From: Allobosea thiooxidans
Lineage (GTDB): Bacteria > Pseudomonadota > Alphaproteobacteria > Rhizobiales > Beijerinckiaceae
Assembly (NCBI RefSeq): GCF_900168195.1
Contig: NZ_FUYX01000002.1
Coordinates: 131,501-195,500 of the forward strand
DNA length: 64,000 bases
Direction: 5' to 3'
Made by a program: the position numbers and the translations under genes. This document shows positions 14,184-21,710 of this stretch, in pieces. Position 1 is the first letter of the stretch. Each line of letters starts with the position of its first letter. The notes under the pieces were generated by a model that had not been told where the DNA came from, did no database searches, and was given only the letters and a program-made list of their open reading frames with translations.

Positions 14184-15617
14184 GTGAGCGCGCCTGCCGA
14201 TCCTTCCGGCACTGGCGCGGCCGATGACAGGCTGTCCGATCAGCCTGTGGTGGATGTCGATATGACCGCTCATGTCGCCATGGAACGTGCGCTGCTGCCG
14301 CCCAGCCGGCCGGCCCTCGCCCTGGCGGCCGGGCGCCGCTTCGTCGCGGCGCGGGCGCCGATGCTGCGTTCGGCCGTGCTGCTGGGGTTGCGCTTCGTCC
14401 AGGCTCGGCTGATTTCGGTCTGGGGTCTCCTGATCGCTGCCGCGCTCTGCCCGCCTTTCGTCTTCGCGGCTTTCGCGGTCTTCTCCGCCGCGGTGAACTT
14501 CGTCTCGACCGCTTCGCTGCTGCGCCTGGAGGCAGTGTTCTTCCAGAGCGGCGACCGGGTCCGGCTCGGCCTCGCCTTCCGGCTTGCGACGGCGGTCGGC
14601 TTCGCCTTCTGTGTTGCGGTGGCAGCGGTTCTGATCGGGCTCGCCGCCTTCGGCTGGATCGCGCCTGCGGTCGGGTTCCTGTTCTTCGGTTCGCTGGTCG
14701 CCCGTTCGGTGCTGCGGCTGCTCTGGGCCGAGGCCACGGCCGAGGGCGATTTCCGCGCGATCGGCAACAGCAATGTCGTGCAGGCGATGGTCCAGCCGGC
14801 GATCATGCTGGTGTTGATCGTCATCTTCGGGCCCAAGGCGCTCGCGTTGTTCCTGGCCGATATGCTGGGGCATGTGCTGGCCGCCGGTTATCTGCTGCGG
14901 CGACGTTGGCCGGCGGTGCTGAGGCTCGCGCATCCGGCCCTGTGGTCGTGGCGCGGCCTCCTCGGCGCGGCCTATCGCTGGCGCGACGCCCCGCGGGCGA
15001 TGCTGCCGGCGGCGCTCCTCGCCTATGGCTTCGCCATCGCCCCGGTGCTGGCGCTGCCCTACGCCTCCAACACCGTGCTCGCCGCCCAGATCGCCCTGTC
15101 GATGCGCCTGCTCGACATGCCGACCCAGATGTTCGGCACGGTCTCGATCCCGGTGGTGCTGAACCGGCTGCGGGCCTGCCCTGGGCAGCGCCGGCGCCTC
15201 TGGGCGCGGATCATGGCGCTTGCGCTCATCGCCGGGGCGGTGCTGCTCTTCGGCGCCATCGCCTTCACCTTCCTGCTGGCGGACCCGTGGCTCGTCGGCA
15301 CGCAATGGGAGGATCTCGGCGTCGTGATCGCGCTGATGGCGCCGTTCTATGTCGGCATCGCCGTGCTGGCGCCGCTGCAGGAAATGGCGACGCTGTCGCG
15401 CCAGCCCCTATGGCAGGTTGCGATCAACGCGCTGGCGCTCGTCGCGATCATCGTGGCGATGGCCTCCTTCGGCGCGCTTTCGCCGGCCCTGCTCGAGGTG
15501 ATTGGCCTGATCTCGGTCCTGCGCATGCTAATGCATGCGGTGTTCATCTGGCTGCATCTCGGCCATGTCGAGGACGTGCCTGCCAGCGGCCTTGCCGTGG
15601 GCAGCGCGGCGCGCTGA
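14184..15617 (+). CDS. Polytopic membrane protein, polysaccharide/lipid flippase-like
   Basis: A 477-residue protein with about 11-12 hydrophobic segments after a polar N-terminal region of roughly 70 residues. The arrangement and the internal YGFAIAPVLALPYASNTVLA block resemble Wzx/MATE-type polysaccharide-biosynthesis flippases, but no polysaccharide genes are nearby, so the substrate is open. The GTG at 14184 gives the longest form; an ATG at 14262 (TAHVAMERALL) is equally possible. The gene is 141 bases after hutX and converges on a phosphatase-like gene with 4 bases between the stops. Confidence 0.65.
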   Translation: MSAPADPSGTGAADDRLSDQPVVDVDMTAHVAMERALLPPSRPALALAAGRRFVAARAPMLRSAVLLGLRFVQARLISVWGLLIAAALCPPFVFAAFAVFSAAVNFVSTASLLRLEAVFFQSGDRVRLGLAFRLATAVGFAFCVAVAAVLIGLAAFGWIAPAVGFLFFGSLVARSVLRLLWAEATAEGDFRAIGNSNVVQAMVQPAIMLVLIVIFGPKALALFLADMLGHVLAAGYLLRRRWPAVLRLAHPALWSWRGLLGAAYRWRDAPRAMLPAALLAYGFAIAPVLALPYASNTVLAAQIALSMRLLDMPTQMFGTVSIPVVLNRLRACPGQRRRLWARIMALALIAGAVLLFGAIAFTFLLADPWLVGTQWEDLGVVIALMAPFYVGIAVLAPLQEMATLSRQPLWQVAINALALVAIIVAMASFGALSPALLEVIGLISVLRMLMHAVFIWLHLGHVEDVPASGLAVGSAAR

Positions 15618-17103: not shown

Positions 17104-17982
17104 TCAGGCAGCGATCGCTTCCGCCAGCGCCACGGTGCGGCGCGCCATTTCGGCATGCAGCAGCTCGACCATCCGCCCGTCGAGCTGGATCGCGCCCTTG
17201 CCGGCATTCTCCGGCTGGTCGAAGGCGGCGATGATCGCGCGCGCCCGGGCGAGCTCCGCCTCGTCCGGCGCGAAGATCGCGTTGGCGGGGCTGAGCTGCG
17301 AGGGGTGGATCAGCGTCTTGCCGTCGAAGCCGAGATCGCGCCCCTGCTCGCATTCCGCCCGGAAGCCCGCCTCGTCCCGGATCTCGTTGTAGACCCCGTC
17401 GAGGATGTCGATGCCATGGGCGCGCGCGGCAAGCAGCGCGCTGGTCAGCCAGGGCAGCATCGGCGCGCGGCCCGGCACGAAGCGGGCGCGCGTCTCCTTG
17501 GCGAGATCATTGGTGCCCATCACGAAGCAGGAGAGCCGCGTGGCAGGATCGCGGGCGGCCCGGGCAATGCGCTCGACGTCGAGGATGGCGAGCGGGGTCT
17601 CGATCATCGCCCAGACGGCGATCTCCGGCGCGGCCTGCAGGACGTCGAGCCGCCGGCCGACCTCGCGCAACGTCTCGGGCGAGTCGACCTTCGGCAGCAG
17701 GATCGCGGCGGGCGCGGCTGCCGCCGCCGCGGCGAGATCGTCGGAGAACCAGGGGGTGGCGAGGCCATTGACCCGGATCACCAGCTCGCGCTTGCCATAG
17801 CCGCCGGCCTTTACCGCGGTGCAGACCTGGTCGCGCGCCACGGCCTTGGCATCGGGGGCGACGGCGTCCTCGAGATCGAGAATCAGCACATCGGCCGCGA
17901 GCTCGCGCGCCTTCTCGAGCGCGCGGGCGTTGGAACCCGGCATATAGAGGGCGCTGCGGCGGGGGCGAATCGTCGTCATCAT
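17104..17982 (-). CDS. HpcH/HpaI-family CoA-ester lyase (CitE/malyl-CoA lyase-like)
   Basis: A 292-residue CitE-like enzyme of the PEP-mutase superfamily. The opening ALYMPGSNARALEKARE is followed by LILDLEDAVAP with the metal-binding acidic residues, RVNGLATPW, and a later CFVMGTNDLAKETRA block. Family members cleave or hydrolyse malyl-CoA, beta-methylmalyl-CoA or citramalyl-CoA. The mesaconyl-CoA hydratase 2 kb away makes an ethylmalonyl-CoA pathway lyase or malyl-CoA thioesterase (Mcl2-like) likely, but these cannot be separated from sequence. Start ATG at 17982 follows a CAGGAGA site. Divergent from the DUF429 fusion gene. Confidence 0.82.
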   Translation of the reverse strand: MMTTIRPRRSALYMPGSNARALEKARELAADVLILDLEDAVAPDAKAVARDQVCTAVKAGGYGKRELVIRVNGLATPWFSDDLAAAAAAAPAAILLPKVDSPETLREVGRRLDVLQAAPEIAVWAMIETPLAILDVERIARAARDPATRLSCFVMGTNDLAKETRARFVPGRAPMLPWLTSALLAARAHGIDILDGVYNEIRDEAGFRAECEQGRDLGFDGKTLIHPSQLSPANAIFAPDEAELARARAIIAAFDQPENAGKGAIQLDGRMVELLHAEMARRTVALAEAIAA

Positions 17983-18070
17983 CTCTCCTGACACGGCCGG
18001 CTTGTGTTGCGCCGCACAGTAGACCACCGCAGCCGCAATGCCAGCGCTGCGAAAGGCGGAGGAAGTGGTC

Positions 18071-19783
18071 ATGGCATTGCTCGCCGGCGTCGATGGCTGC
18101 CGCGGCGGCTGGATCGCGGCGCTTTTCGACACGAGCCGGCCGGAATGTCCGCCGATGGTGCGCGTCCTGCCGCGCTTCGACGATCTGTTCGCCGATGCCG
18201 TGCCCGACATCGTGGCGGTCGACATGCCTATTGGGTTGCCGGAGCGGGTGCAGGGTTCCGGTCGCGGGCCCGAGCAACTGGTCCGGCCGCTGCTCGGCGC
18301 TCGGCAATCCTCGGTCTTCGCGATCCCGGCGCGGTGCGCCGTCGAGGCCGCCGACTATGCCGAGGCCTGCGCGCGGGCGCTGGCGGCGTCCGACCCGCCG
18401 CGCAAGGTCTCGAAGCAGGGATTCCACCTCTTTCCCAAGATCCGCGAGATCGACAGGCTGCTGCGCGGCGAGCCGGCGCTGAGCGAGCGCGTTTTCGAAA
18501 TCCATCCTGAGCTCGCCTTCCGCATGATGCGCGGTGCGACGCTGGCGCATCCGAAGAAGATCAAGGGCGTGGTCAATCCGGCGGGGCTCTGCGAGCGCCG
18601 GGGCCTGCTGGTCGCCGCGGGCATCCCGGCTGCAACGGCTGAAGCCCGGCCGCCGCGGGGTGCGGCGGGCGACGACCTGCTCGACGCGCTCGCCGCCCTC
18701 GTCGTCGCCCGGCACATTGCCGCCGGGCGGGGCAGGCCCTTCCCCGATCCGCCCGGACGCGATAGCCACGGGCTTCCGGTCGCGATCTGGACCTTTGCGT
18801 CCTCGCCTCAGCCAGCACAGGATTCCGTCATGAGCGTTTCCCCTGTCACCCGCCCGATGATCGAGGAAGCGGCCGGGCGCATCGCCGGCCATGCGCGGGT
18901 TACACCCGTGATGCGGCTCGGCGCCGGCGCGCTCGGCACCAAGGCGGATGTCTCGCTCAAGCTCGAATGCCTGCAGCATGCCGGCTCGTTCAAGACGCGC
19001 GGCGCCTTCAACAACCTGCTCTCGCTGCCTGTGCCGGCGGCCGGAGTCTCGGCCGCATCGGGCGGCAATCACGGTGCGGCGGTGGCCTATGCCGCGATGA
19101 AGCGAGGGGTGAAGGCGACGATCTTCGTGCCGGAGATCTCGCCGGCAGCCAAGATCGACGCGATCCGGCGCTTCGGCGCCGATGTGGTCGTCGGCGGCGC
19201 GCAGTACGACGATGCGCAGGCGGCCTGCGACCGCTTCGTCGCGGAGACCGGGGCGCTCAAGATCCACCCCTTCGCCGCGATGGAGACGATCGCCGGGCAG
19301 GGCACGCTCGGCCGCGAATGGGATCTGCAGGAGCCCGATCTCGACACGGTGCTCGTCGCGGTCGGCGGCGGCGGGCTGATCTCGGGCATCGCGAGCTGGT
19401 TCGCCGGCAGCAAGGTCAAGGTCGTCGGCGTCGAGCCCGAGGGTTCGCGGGCGCTCCAGGCGGCGTTCGAGGCGAAGGGGCCGGTCGAGGTCAAGGTCGC
19501 GTCGGTCGCGGCGGATTCGCTCGGCGCCCGCAATGTCGGCCAGCTCGTCTACGACGTCACCAAGGACAGCGTCGCCCGCATCGCGCTCGTGCCGGATGCG
19601 GCGATCACCGAGGCGCAAGCGCTGCTCTGGCGCGATTTCCGCCTTGCGGTCGAGCCGGGCGGGGCGGCAGCGCTGGCGGCGCTCCTGTGCGGCGCCTACG
19701 AGCCCGCGGCGGGCGAGCGGCTCGGCGTTCTGGTCTGCGGGGCCAATGTCGATCTGACGAAGCTCGCGGCGATCGCGGGGTAA
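18071..19783 (+). CDS. DUF429 domain fused in frame to a PLP-dependent threonine/serine dehydratase
   Basis: One uninterrupted frame of 570 codons encodes two proteins normally separate. Residues 1-253 are a DUF429 domain (LAGVDGCRGGWIAALF, VDMPIGLPER, FEIHPELAFRMM). Residues 254-570 are a fold-type II dehydratase beginning at an internal ATG (18830), with the Schiff-base lysine in HAGSFKTRGAF (Lys308), the phosphate-binding SGGNHGAAVAYAA, and VGGGGLISG. GCGGAGGAAG before 18071 is a good ribosome binding site; only a weak CAGG precedes 18830. The junction reads through an 11-residue linker ending QPAQDSV. Either it is a true fusion or the first gene has lost its stop. Confidence 0.8.
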   Translation: MALLAGVDGCRGGWIAALFDTSRPECPPMVRVLPRFDDLFADAVPDIVAVDMPIGLPERVQGSGRGPEQLVRPLLGARQSSVFAIPARCAVEAADYAEACARALAASDPPRKVSKQGFHLFPKIREIDRLLRGEPALSERVFEIHPELAFRMMRGATLAHPKKIKGVVNPAGLCERRGLLVAAGIPAATAEARPPRGAAGDDLLDALAALVVARHIAAGRGRPFPDPPGRDSHGLPVAIWTFASSPQPAQDSVMSVSPVTRPMIEEAAGRIAGHARVTPVMRLGAGALGTKADVSLKLECLQHAGSFKTRGAFNNLLSLPVPAAGVSAASGGNHGAAVAYAAMKRGVKATIFVPEISPAAKIDAIRRFGADVVVGGAQYDDAQAACDRFVAETGALKIHPFAAMETIAGQGTLGREWDLQEPDLDTVLVAVGGGGLISGIASWFAGSKVKVVGVEPEGSRALQAAFEAKGPVEVKVASVAADSLGARNVGQLVYDVTKDSVARIALVPDAAITEAQALLWRDFRLAVEPGGAAALAALLCGAYEPAAGERLGVLVCGANVDLTKLAAIAG

Positions 19784-19788
19784 GGGGG

Positions 19789-19875
19789 CGTCATTCCCGG
19801 GCTTGACCCGCGAATCTCCTGACGAAAGAGGCGCCCCTTCTGCATGATATGCTAGGGGCAAGCCCGGGCATGACG
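19789..19875. repeat. Intergenic palindromic element with 17-base arms
   Basis: The arms CGTCATTCCCGGGCTTG (19789-19805) and CAAGCCCGGGCATGACG (19859-19875) are inverted and match at 16 of 17 positions, around a 53-base centre. It lies between the dehydratase fusion and the mesaconyl-CoA hydratase genes. The GTCAT-TCCCGGGCTTG core is a type of dispersed palindrome I associate with rhizobial genomes. Confidence 0.75.
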
Positions 19876-19947
19876 CTCGGCCTTTCGTCGGGGCTGGACG
19901 GCGCGCTTGGTTGCAACGCAATATCGCCGGCGATCAGGAGGCGATGC

Positions 19948-21009
19948 ATGACCGGCGCGACAGCGAAGACCAGTTCCGGCCGCTTCTTCGAGGATTTCCA
20001 TCTCGGCGACATGATCGTGCACGCGACGCCGCGCACGGTGACGGCCGGCGACGTCGCACTCTACACCGCCCTCTACGGGCCGCGCTTCGCCGTGCAGTCC
20101 TCGGACGCCTTCGCCCGGGCGATCGGCTACCCGGCGGCGCCGGTGGACGACCTGCTGGTCTTCCACATCGTCTTCGGTAAGACCGTACCGGACATCTCGC
20201 TCAATGCGGTCGCCAATCTCGGCTACGCCGATGGCCGGTTCCTGCGGCCGGTCTTCCCCGGCGACACGTTGGCGACGACCTCCGAGGTCATCGGGCTGAA
20301 GCAGACATCCGCGGGCGATGCCGGCATCGTCTATGTCCGCTCGATCGGCCGCAACCAGCATGCCGAGATCGTGCTGAGCTATGCGCGCTGGGTACTGGTG
20401 CGCAAGCGGGAGCCCGGCACGCCGGCCCATGCCGAGCAGGTGCCGGAACTGGCGAAGGCCGTGCTGCCCGAAGAGCTCGGCGAAGGCTGCCCCGCGATCG
20501 AGCTCTCTGCCTATGACGATGCGCTGGCAGGCTCGCCCTTCCGCTGGAGCGACTATGCCGTCGGCGAGCGCATCGACCATGTCGACGGCATGACCGTCGA
20601 GGAGAGCGAGCACCAGCTCGCGACCCGGCTCTACCAGAATACGGCCAGAGTGCATTTCGATGCCCATGCCGCGCAGGGCAGCCGCTTCGGCAAGCGGCTG
20701 ATCTATGGCGGCCATGTCATCAGCCTGGCGCGGGCACTCTCCTTCAACGGGCTCGGCAACGCCTTCCACATCGCGGCGATCAATGGCGGGCGCCATGTTG
20801 CGCCGCTCTTCGCCGGCGACACGGTCTATGCCTGGAGCGAGGTGCTGGCGAGCGCGGAGCTGCCGGGGCGCGGCGATGTCGGAGCACTCCGGCTGAGGCT
20901 CGTCGCCGCCAAGAACCGACCCTGCGCCGACCACCCGCTGAAGCAGGGCGATCAGTACGATCCGAGCGTGATCCTCGATTTCGACTACTGGGCGCTGCTG
21001 CCGCGGTGA
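19948..21009 (+). CDS. mch: Mesaconyl-CoA hydratase (beta-methylmalyl-CoA dehydratase), MaoC-type
   Basis: A 353-residue double-hotdog (MaoC-like) hydratase that interconverts mesaconyl-C1-CoA and beta-methylmalyl-CoA in the ethylmalonyl-CoA pathway. The family hallmarks are FFEDFHLGDMIVHATPRTVT at the N-terminus, VFHIVFGKTVPDISLNAVAN, then DHVDGMTVEESEHQLATRLY and FAGDTVYAWSEVL. These agree closely with my memory of Rhodobacter Mch. The ATG at 19948 has a CAGGAGG site. With the CoA-ester lyase at 17.1 kb it suggests acetyl-CoA assimilation by this pathway; crotonyl-CoA carboxylase/reductase is not in the window. Confidence 0.9.
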   Translation: MTGATAKTSSGRFFEDFHLGDMIVHATPRTVTAGDVALYTALYGPRFAVQSSDAFARAIGYPAAPVDDLLVFHIVFGKTVPDISLNAVANLGYADGRFLRPVFPGDTLATTSEVIGLKQTSAGDAGIVYVRSIGRNQHAEIVLSYARWVLVRKREPGTPAHAEQVPELAKAVLPEELGEGCPAIELSAYDDALAGSPFRWSDYAVGERIDHVDGMTVEESEHQLATRLYQNTARVHFDAHAAQGSRFGKRLIYGGHVISLARALSFNGLGNAFHIAAINGGRHVAPLFAGDTVYAWSEVLASAELPGRGDVGALRLRLVAAKNRPCADHPLKQGDQYDPSVILDFDYWALLPR

Positions 21010-21021
21010 CTTCGGACGTGG

Positions 21022-21109
21022 TTGCGAGGAGCGAAGCGACGAAGCAAAGCCGGGCCGCAGGGCTGAAGGCTCTACCCAGTCCCTCTGGGTTGCTTCGCTT
21101 CGCTCGCAG
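21022..21109. repeat. Imperfect palindromic repeat upstream of sdhC
   Basis: A left segment TGCGAGGAGCGAAGCGACGA followed by AGCAA (from 21023) and a right segment TTGCTTCGCTTCGCTCGCA (21090-21108) are inverted copies with small gaps, around a roughly 42-base centre. The GCGAAGCGAAGCAA core looks like a dispersed intergenic repeat. It occupies the first third of the 305-base gap between mch and sdhC; the rest carries a promoter candidate and no gene. Confidence 0.6.
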
Positions 21110-21215
21110 TGACGGTTATGGTGCCGGCAAGCACTCCTTAATGGGAGCCGCGCTAAGCTTTTTGTAACGAAATGACGATTTTCAGAATCTGTAACTTTGT
21201 TATGCGCGTGCCGCA

Positions 21216-21244
21216 TTGCAGCGCCGGGATGGTTTCGTTAGAGA
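21216..21244 (+). promoter_or_regulatory. Candidate promoter of sdhCDAB
   Basis: TTGCAG (21216-21221) and TAGAGA (21239-21244) are spaced by 17 bases in the AT-richer part of the gap and lie about 70 bases before the sdhC start. The position is right for the operon promoter. The match is moderate. Confidence 0.4.
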
Positions 21245-21314
21245 ACCAGTCACCCTAGAATGATCCCAAATGGGTCCGCCGTTTTCCGACGGGCCGCTTG
21301 ATCGGAGAACGATA

Positions 21315-21710
21315 TTGGCCGAGGTCAAGCCCGTGGCTCGCCCGCTTTCGCCGCATCTGCAGATCTACCGCTGGTCCTGGACGATGGCGATGTCCGTCGC
21401 CCACCGCGTCACCGGGTCGGGGCTCTATCTCGGCACGGTGCTGATCGCAGCCTGGCTCGTCGCCGCCGCGTCCGGCCCCGCCGCCTTCGGTACCGCCCAG
21501 GCGATCGCCGGCTCCTTCCTCGGCCGCCTCGTGCTGTTCCTCTACAGCTTCTCGCTGATCCATCACATGCTCGGGGGGCTGCGCCACTTCGTCTGGGACA
21601 TGGGCAAGGGCTACGAGCCCGAGACCCGCATGAAAATGGCCAAGTTCACGCTGGTCGGCTCGGTGAGCCTGACGGTCCTGGTCTGGATCGTCGCGCTGGT
21701 CCTGCGCTGA
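21315..21710 (+). CDS. sdhC: Succinate dehydrogenase cytochrome b556 subunit SdhC
   Basis: A 131-residue membrane-anchor subunit of complex II. The motif RPLSPHLQIYRWSWTMAMSV, then the SVAHRVTGSGLY segment and HHMLGGLRHFVWD with the heme-ligand histidine are diagnostic. Three membrane helices are visible. I chose a TTG start at 21315 because GGAGAA sits 5 bases upstream and the product then begins with the family-typical (M)AEVKPVARPLSP; an ATG-like start further up (21270) would add a non-conserved 15 residues. First gene of sdhCDAB. Confidence 0.9.
   Translation: MAEVKPVARPLSPHLQIYRWSWTMAMSVAHRVTGSGLYLGTVLIAAWLVAAASGPAAFGTAQAIAGSFLGRLVLFLYSFSLIHHMLGGLRHFVWDMGKGYEPETRMKMAKFTLVGSVSLTVLVWIVALVLR

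Follow-up and report, generated by a model that had tools for sequence, protein, structure and literature searches.

A probable old stop-codon loss joins a DUF429 protein to a serine/threonine dehydratase in Bosea and appears to leave the dehydratase its own start

In the stretch of Allobosea thiooxidans DNA analysed here (64,000 nucleotides, hereafter the window), a DUF429 protein and a serine/threonine dehydratase are read as one protein, which raises the question of how the two came to share a frame and whether it is the fusion that is kept or only the coupling of their translation. The frame runs on the plus strand from an ATG at 18071 to a TAA at 19781-19783 and encodes 570 residues with no internal stop. 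Its N-terminal part, residues 1-242 (18071-18796), is a DUF429 domain by Pfam and in the AlphaFold2 model; PF04250 matches residues 6-228 with 180.9 bits, against a gathering score of 23, and a strong Shine-Dalgarno sequence, GGAGG, precedes the start at 18058-18062 on the same strand. The C-terminal part (plus strand, 18830-19783, stop included) is a dehydratase of PLP fold type II, in which PALP (PF00291) matches residues 273-557 with 226.5 bits (cut-off 35) and the serine/threonine dehydratase model PRK08246 matches residues from about 260 to 565 with 404 bits (NCBIfam cut-off 331). The first-pass annotation, made from the sequence of the window, had described one stop-free protein with these two parts, as we find; its 11-residue linker is in fact 13 residues long. 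This linker, TFASSPQPAQDSV (plus strand, 18791-18829), once an intergenic spacer, separates the final residue of the family-typical motif GLPVAIW (W240, 18788-18790) from the methionine of the dehydratase (Met254, 18830-18832).

The window's genome assembly comprises 34 contigs and 5.37 Mb, and the same annotation had offered a sequencing error or a recent loss of the stop as explanations. It had also suggested looking for the same fusion in relatives. Among 67 genomes selected by genus code, 66 match the fused protein at E ≤ 1e-60, and the junction is readable in 63 rows once four genomes are set aside: one with no match at that threshold (G016), two with no DUF429 (G011 and G832) and one with a contig break (G034). 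These rows fall into a main clade of 56 and a deep clade of seven, the latter including metagenome-assembled genomes not named Bosea (L079-L081). In 53 of the 63 readable junctions the two halves are fused in frame with no stop, more than chance would produce. The fused genomes include one- and two-contig assemblies (G012, G010 and G009, for example), and 27 of the 29 named records L055-L083, many of them the same genomes, show the same open frame. A base-call error or a recent loss confined to a single genome is thus extremely improbable given an open frame so widely shared across linkers that have diverged, and we rejected both.

What stands of the earlier proposal is the loss itself. At the site of the lost stop the window has TTT (Phe242, plus strand, 18794-18796), and the homologous codon is TAA in all three Chelatococcus loci and TGA in all seven other outgroup loci. 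The Chelatococcus loci (L084-L086) have the same gene order, with a divergent CitE-type gene, and read IWT followed by TAA; the seven further loci, six of them from one family, read IWA-TGA. Gene fusion by stop loss is the process associated with such a pattern, in which an outgroup shares the gene order but ends the first gene at the homologous codon. Because Chelatococcus carries TAA at the exact codon in the same locus, loss of the DUF429 stop is supported, and together with the other outgroup stops this argues that the Bosea frame arose by stop loss and read-through into the former spacer. Across the aligned main-clade rows (44 of 44) the codon now specifies Phe, Tyr or Trp and always begins with T. 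The distance from stop to dehydratase ATG in the outgroups is +70 or +71 nt in 3/3 Chelatococcus loci and +48 nt in five of the seven others, the start being unfound by script in the remaining two.

Within the genus, the ten junctions that are split show where a stop is found when one is present. In four of them the linker itself contains the stop (TAG in L016, L017 and L178; TAA in L185), and in the other six a frame shift makes DUF429 end in an ATGA that overlaps the dehydratase start (L041, L042, L187, L188, L189 and L191). The resulting distances from stop to ATG are -4 nt in six rows, +9 in three and +15 in one, so that nine of the ten fall within the spacing of coupled pairs (about -8 to +10 nt) and one lies beyond it. 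No stop occurs in linker codons 0-7 in any of the ten. In 19 rows the gap differs from the usual 30 nt, and in 13 of these its length is a multiple of three (one gap of 24 nt, two of 27, six of 36, one of 42, two of 45 and one of 48); the 13 include L178 and L185, which are split by their stops. The frame-changed rows have a gap of 29 nt five times and 35 nt once; all six frame-breaking rows end in ATGA, and no genus junction falls into the third frame class.

A quick tree built from the dehydratase halves places the split rows mostly as scattered tips and requires at least ten state changes within the genus. The ten splits are counts of rows and not of independent events, and the number of re-splits is approximate because many forks of the tree are weakly supported. 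For the main clade a fused root costs eight changes and a split root ten, and for the deep clade either root costs two. Once the outgroup is counted, a single stop loss at the root of the genus costs 11 changes and an independent loss in each clade costs 11 as well, and we do not press a single origin. On these counts, the base of the main clade is the latest point at which the stop can have disappeared; the deep clade either shares this one event with the rest of the genus or lost its stop independently.

The evolution of the linker suggests that most of it behaves as a spacer. We counted parsimony steps by codon position over those main-clade rows whose gap has the usual length (44 of 56), among them L016 and L017, which are split by TAG. 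The 15 codons before the junction took 12, 9 and 52 steps at positions 1, 2 and 3, and the 14 codons after the dehydratase ATG took 23, 15 and 86, in both cases a protein-coding pattern. The first two linker codons (codons 0 and 1, encoding [TS][FYW]) are also coding-like, with 0/3/10 and 0/8/11 steps; they evolve like protein after the W, and thus the extension is at least partly functional as a peptide. Linker codons 2-8, in contrast, took 60, 41 and 60 steps with no excess at position 3, and with no codon-position bias this stretch appears to evolve as a spacer rather than as a constrained peptide. Stop gains in the same rows number none in codons 0-8, where a neutral count gives 4.3, a moderately unusual shortfall, and one (L016 with L017) in codons 9-12, where 3.3 are expected; we take these counts as modest evidence. 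The bare absence of in-frame stops is a weak sign of selection, because the other two frames are also nearly free of them (a stop in just 1 and 6 of the 53 fused linkers), and an argument for selection on the open frame from missing stops alone was dropped for this reason.

At the far end of the linker, the dehydratase seems to have kept a start signal of its own. An in-frame ATG on the plus strand at 18830-18832 recurs in the same place, or a few codons away, in 62 of 63 genus rows, the remaining row (L170) having its ATG five codons earlier, and it shows no parsimony step among the 44 rows. Seven nucleotides ahead of it lies a putative internal Shine-Dalgarno sequence, AGGA (plus strand, 18819-18822). 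On the 44-row tree its four sites changed in a single parsimony step, where 27.9 would be expected from the remaining sites of linker codons 2-12 (Poisson p ~2e-11). By script, 54 of 63 rows have AGGA ahead of the dehydratase start, L170 has it before its earlier ATG, and it is reduced to GGA, GGAG or AGG in eight rows (the deep clade and L186). Thus a conserved internal ribosome-binding site and a start in the same frame, the pattern of an in-frame embedded gene, are both present, more weakly in the deep clade.

The first-pass annotation had granted a strong ribosome-binding site to the first start only, which is correct as to strength and overlooks the internal site, weaker but conserved. 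Pairing with the 16S tail gives -9.5 kcal/mol at the first start and -4.1 kcal/mol (median) at the internal one. Of 330 in-frame internal ATGs from the same set of loci, 22% do as well as the latter, and so do 35% of 4,000 positions taken at random from the window; we rejected an argument from the strength of a site whose energy is so common in the background; the evidence for the internal site is its conservation. Because the dehydratase keeps this conserved start signal, the cell can probably still make the free enzyme.

The acidic DUF429 residues D8, D51, E143, E147, D201, D202 and D205 occur in 63/63 genus and 10/10 outgroup rows and may form an RNase H-like active site, with the catalytic subset among them a matter of inference. 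In the dehydratase, every one of the 63 genus rows has K308 and N333, and 62 have G433-G435, the exception (L186) being cut by a contig end; we take K308 to be the PLP lysine and G433-G435 the PLP-binding glycine-rich loop. The model of the whole fusion has two confident domains joined by a linker with pLDDT below 50 at residues 245-255, and it does not predict how the domains are placed, because its pTM is 0.56. Modelled alone with AlphaFold2, the DUF429 half reaches a pLDDT of 94.6, and its last strand (236-242) includes T241, whose codon preceded the old stop, and F242, which now occupies the position of that stop.

Comparison of this DUF429 model with known structures gave RuvC-type resolvases as best matches (Z 9.3, with 140 residues aligned at 3.4 Å, only a little above the best Z of 7 to 8 that is typical when there is no clear match). 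The first 15 rows are all Holliday-junction resolvases (Z 9.3 to 7.5), and the next row scores 6.7. Foldseek alone returned nothing at E ≤ 0.001 for the model, and a sequence search for solved relatives of DUF429 gave weak, unrelated matches only. On balance, we lean towards an RNase H-like fold of the RuvC type for this domain. For the dehydratase half the best fold match is TdcB (2gn0), with threonine deaminases and serine racemases also matched; its search for solved relatives by sequence gave none at E ≤ 1e-20.

In the genomes sampled, the fusion appears to be a feature of the genus. In a scan of named genomes, the closest relatives are mostly records of the soil bacterium Bosea, with some Hyphomicrobiales and then Chelatococcus. 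Among the matches listed, no fusion was found outside the genus in 397 genomes of the order (E ≤ 1e-40), 385 of the class (E ≤ 1e-110) or 398 of the phylum (E ≤ 1e-85), these sets being overlapping samples, and a plasmid collection gave four records, all matching the dehydratase half only. The unbroken full-length matches listed from the order are the window's genome and two others of the genus, while seven others carry one TGA; in these seven and in the three Chelatococcus genomes DUF429 adjoins the dehydratase. In the flanks of 67 dehydratase loci from outside the genus (1.5-4 kb, some cut shorter), DUF429 was found at just four, comprising 4/19 loci from order genomes and 0/48 from named genomes, and thus the pairing is not general.

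Within the genus the dehydratase can also stand without its partner. G011 and G832 (the latter 88% complete) keep the dehydratase, and a genome-wide search of each with the DUF429 half gave no match at E ≤ 0.001. The dehydratase of G832 (L190) lies directly behind the divergent CitE-type gene, and that of G011 (L043) adjoins the MaoC gene. G016 has no DUF429 in the whole genome at E ≤ 0.001 and no dehydratase match at E ≤ 1e-60, and no genome of the genus set was seen to have DUF429 with the dehydratase demonstrably missing.

Several features of the surroundings deserve mention in their own right. In the window (region 17107-21707), the fusion is flanked on one side by a divergent lyase gene of the CitE/HpcH type and on the other by a MaoC gene resembling mesaconyl-CoA hydratase, which is followed by a succinate dehydrogenase subunit. 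The lyase gene (minus strand, 17107-17991 as searched, with an approximate start) is the synteny anchor common to Chelatococcus; the CitE-type gene is found in 29/29 of the records L055-L083 and 3/3 Chelatococcus loci, and MaoC was found in some but not all of these. Farther upstream, a 477-residue open frame at 14184-15614 on the plus strand has no Pfam match. Seven of the 56 main-clade rows (L032, L033, L034, L035, L036, L041 and L182) have a DUF429 half only 48-56% identical to the window's beside a dehydratase half that is 84-91% identical. In three such records (L076, L077 and L082) DUF429 is divergent up to about residue 200 and has an eight-residue insert, and the last ~40 residues before the W resemble the common type in L076 and L082 and less so in L077. 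The divergent DUF429 halves look like domain replacement by recombination within the frame.

The reading we favour, with somewhat better than even confidence, is that this is an old stop-loss fusion that has kept an internal start, most likely yields both products and is maintained for the coupling of their translation. The DUF429 gene would have lost its stop codon in an ancestor of Bosea, so that translation ran in frame across a short spacer into the downstream dehydratase gene. The former spacer would have turned into a flexible linker, with the dehydratase's own ribosome-binding site and ATG retained inside the fused frame. Because these are retained, one mRNA most likely gives two products: the 570-residue fusion and, from ribosomes starting at the internal ATG with the aid of translation of the upstream DUF429, the dehydratase alone at about 317 residues. 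The selected trait would then most likely be coupling, in that DUF429 translation has to reach the dehydratase start, and three interchangeable kinds of junction may achieve it: a covalent fusion, a stop lying 9-15 nt ahead of the ATG, or an overlap at ATGA.

A bolder version of the same idea can be put forward only tentatively. Here one gene would supply two forms of serine/threonine dehydratase, one made free from the internal start and the other attached to a RuvC-like nuclease domain. The junction would flip repeatedly between fusion, nearby stop and ATGA overlap, the reason being that what is selected is the coupling and assembly of the two proteins during translation and not the covalent bond. 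If so, DUF429 would be a physical partner of the dehydratase.

Alternatively, the 570-residue fusion may be the sole product, an obligate bifunctional protein whose activities depend on each other and in which the internal AGGA-ATG is a relic. The prevalence of fused junctions across the genus (53/63) would fit such a protein, as would the 13 of 19 unusual gaps that keep whole codons (two of the 13 being split, as noted), the stronger first ribosome-binding site, and the acidic residues and PLP lysine intact in 63/63 rows. Against this, neither AGGA nor ATG has decayed in the fused main-clade lineages. Moreover, ten rows are split, six of them by a change of frame, two genomes carry the dehydratase with no DUF429, and linker codons 2-8 show no codon-position bias. 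We consider an obligate fusion unlikely for these reasons; a functional covalent fusion of DUF429 and dehydratase is possible.

At the other extreme, the stop may have been lost by chance and the extension tolerated, with the dehydratase keeping its start and selection acting on neither fusion nor coupling. The bias-free evolution of linker codons 2-8 and the rarity of stops in all three linker frames (1 and 6 of 53 in the other two) are what neutral read-through would lead one to expect. The placement of the breaks is not: all ten stops lie between -4 and +15 nt from the dehydratase start with none in codons 0-7, codons 0-8 have gained no stop against 4.3 expected, and 6/6 frame-breaking rows belong to the ATGA class with none in the other. 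Neutral read-through is in our judgement rather improbable, and we return to the favoured reading of a stop-loss fusion with a retained internal start and coupled translation.

The finding of a DUF429-dehydratase fusion is real but modest. A partner that is fused across a genus offers a testable lead on DUF429, pointing to serine/threonine breakdown rather than DNA alone, and the presence of DUF429 beside the dehydratase in Chelatococcus, as in a small number of further lineages from the order, adds to it. The locus is also a natural series, with 10 of 63 junctions split and the outgroup stop still in place, in which it can be asked whether the fusion is kept or only the coupling. Searches under DUF429 and its Pfam and COG names found no tested function in the accessible portions of the literature, and those combining Bosea with threonine dehydratase brought up no related title.

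Our findings can be set beside several known systems. DUF429 (PF04250; COG2410, COG4328, COG4923) has been placed in clade D of the RNase H-like superfamily with RuvC, YqgF and Tex, and its nuclease activity is a prediction (PMC3985635, accessible part). The Bosea domain resembles the family in its domain match, in its conserved acidic residues and, less firmly, in having RuvC-type resolvases as best fold matches, the last in agreement with that clade placement (PMC3985635, same portion). According to the same text, most DUF429 proteins are single-domain, and the partners it names are NUDIX and RelA/SpoT. Fusion of a neighbouring gene pair is a known kind of event; the PLP dehydratase partner in Bosea differs from the family as described and goes unmentioned in the accessible part of PMC3985635. 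The dehydratase half is in turn like other PRK08246 proteins (TdcB and serine racemase-like, PLP fold type II) in passing the NCBIfam cut-off, in having TdcB (2gn0) as its best fold match and in keeping K308. It is unlike them in that 53 of the 63 readable Bosea junctions join it to a DUF429 at its N-terminus, a fusion seen in none of the matches listed from outside the genus.

The proposed internal start has a counterpart in phage Ms6, where lysA241 is embedded in frame in lysA with its own ribosome-binding site (PMC3111421, in the text available). The two cases share a common frame, an internal ribosome-binding site and a shorter C-terminal product, which in Bosea is proposed. As far as that text goes, both phage products have been studied by experiment, whereas the Bosea gene derives from loss of a stop between two genes and is known from its sequence.

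Translational coupling, the subject of a review (PMC12548453, from its accessible text), provides a comparison for the split junctions. Termination-reinitiation is described as requiring genes that overlap slightly or lie very close together, and a small set of E. coli genes is spaced at about +10; the -4 spacing and, in E. coli, that of about +10 are linked to it, and its gene pairs are enriched for subunits of complexes (all from the available part of PMC10666635). The downstream Shine-Dalgarno sequence of a coupled pair may be weak (PMC3711429, likewise in part). The split Bosea loci are like such pairs in that nine of ten are spaced at -4 with ATGA or at roughly +10 nt, the tenth at +15, and in their weak downstream Shine-Dalgarno sequence. 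Unlike coupled pairs, most Bosea rows have no stop at all, and the putative coupling site lies inside a single frame.
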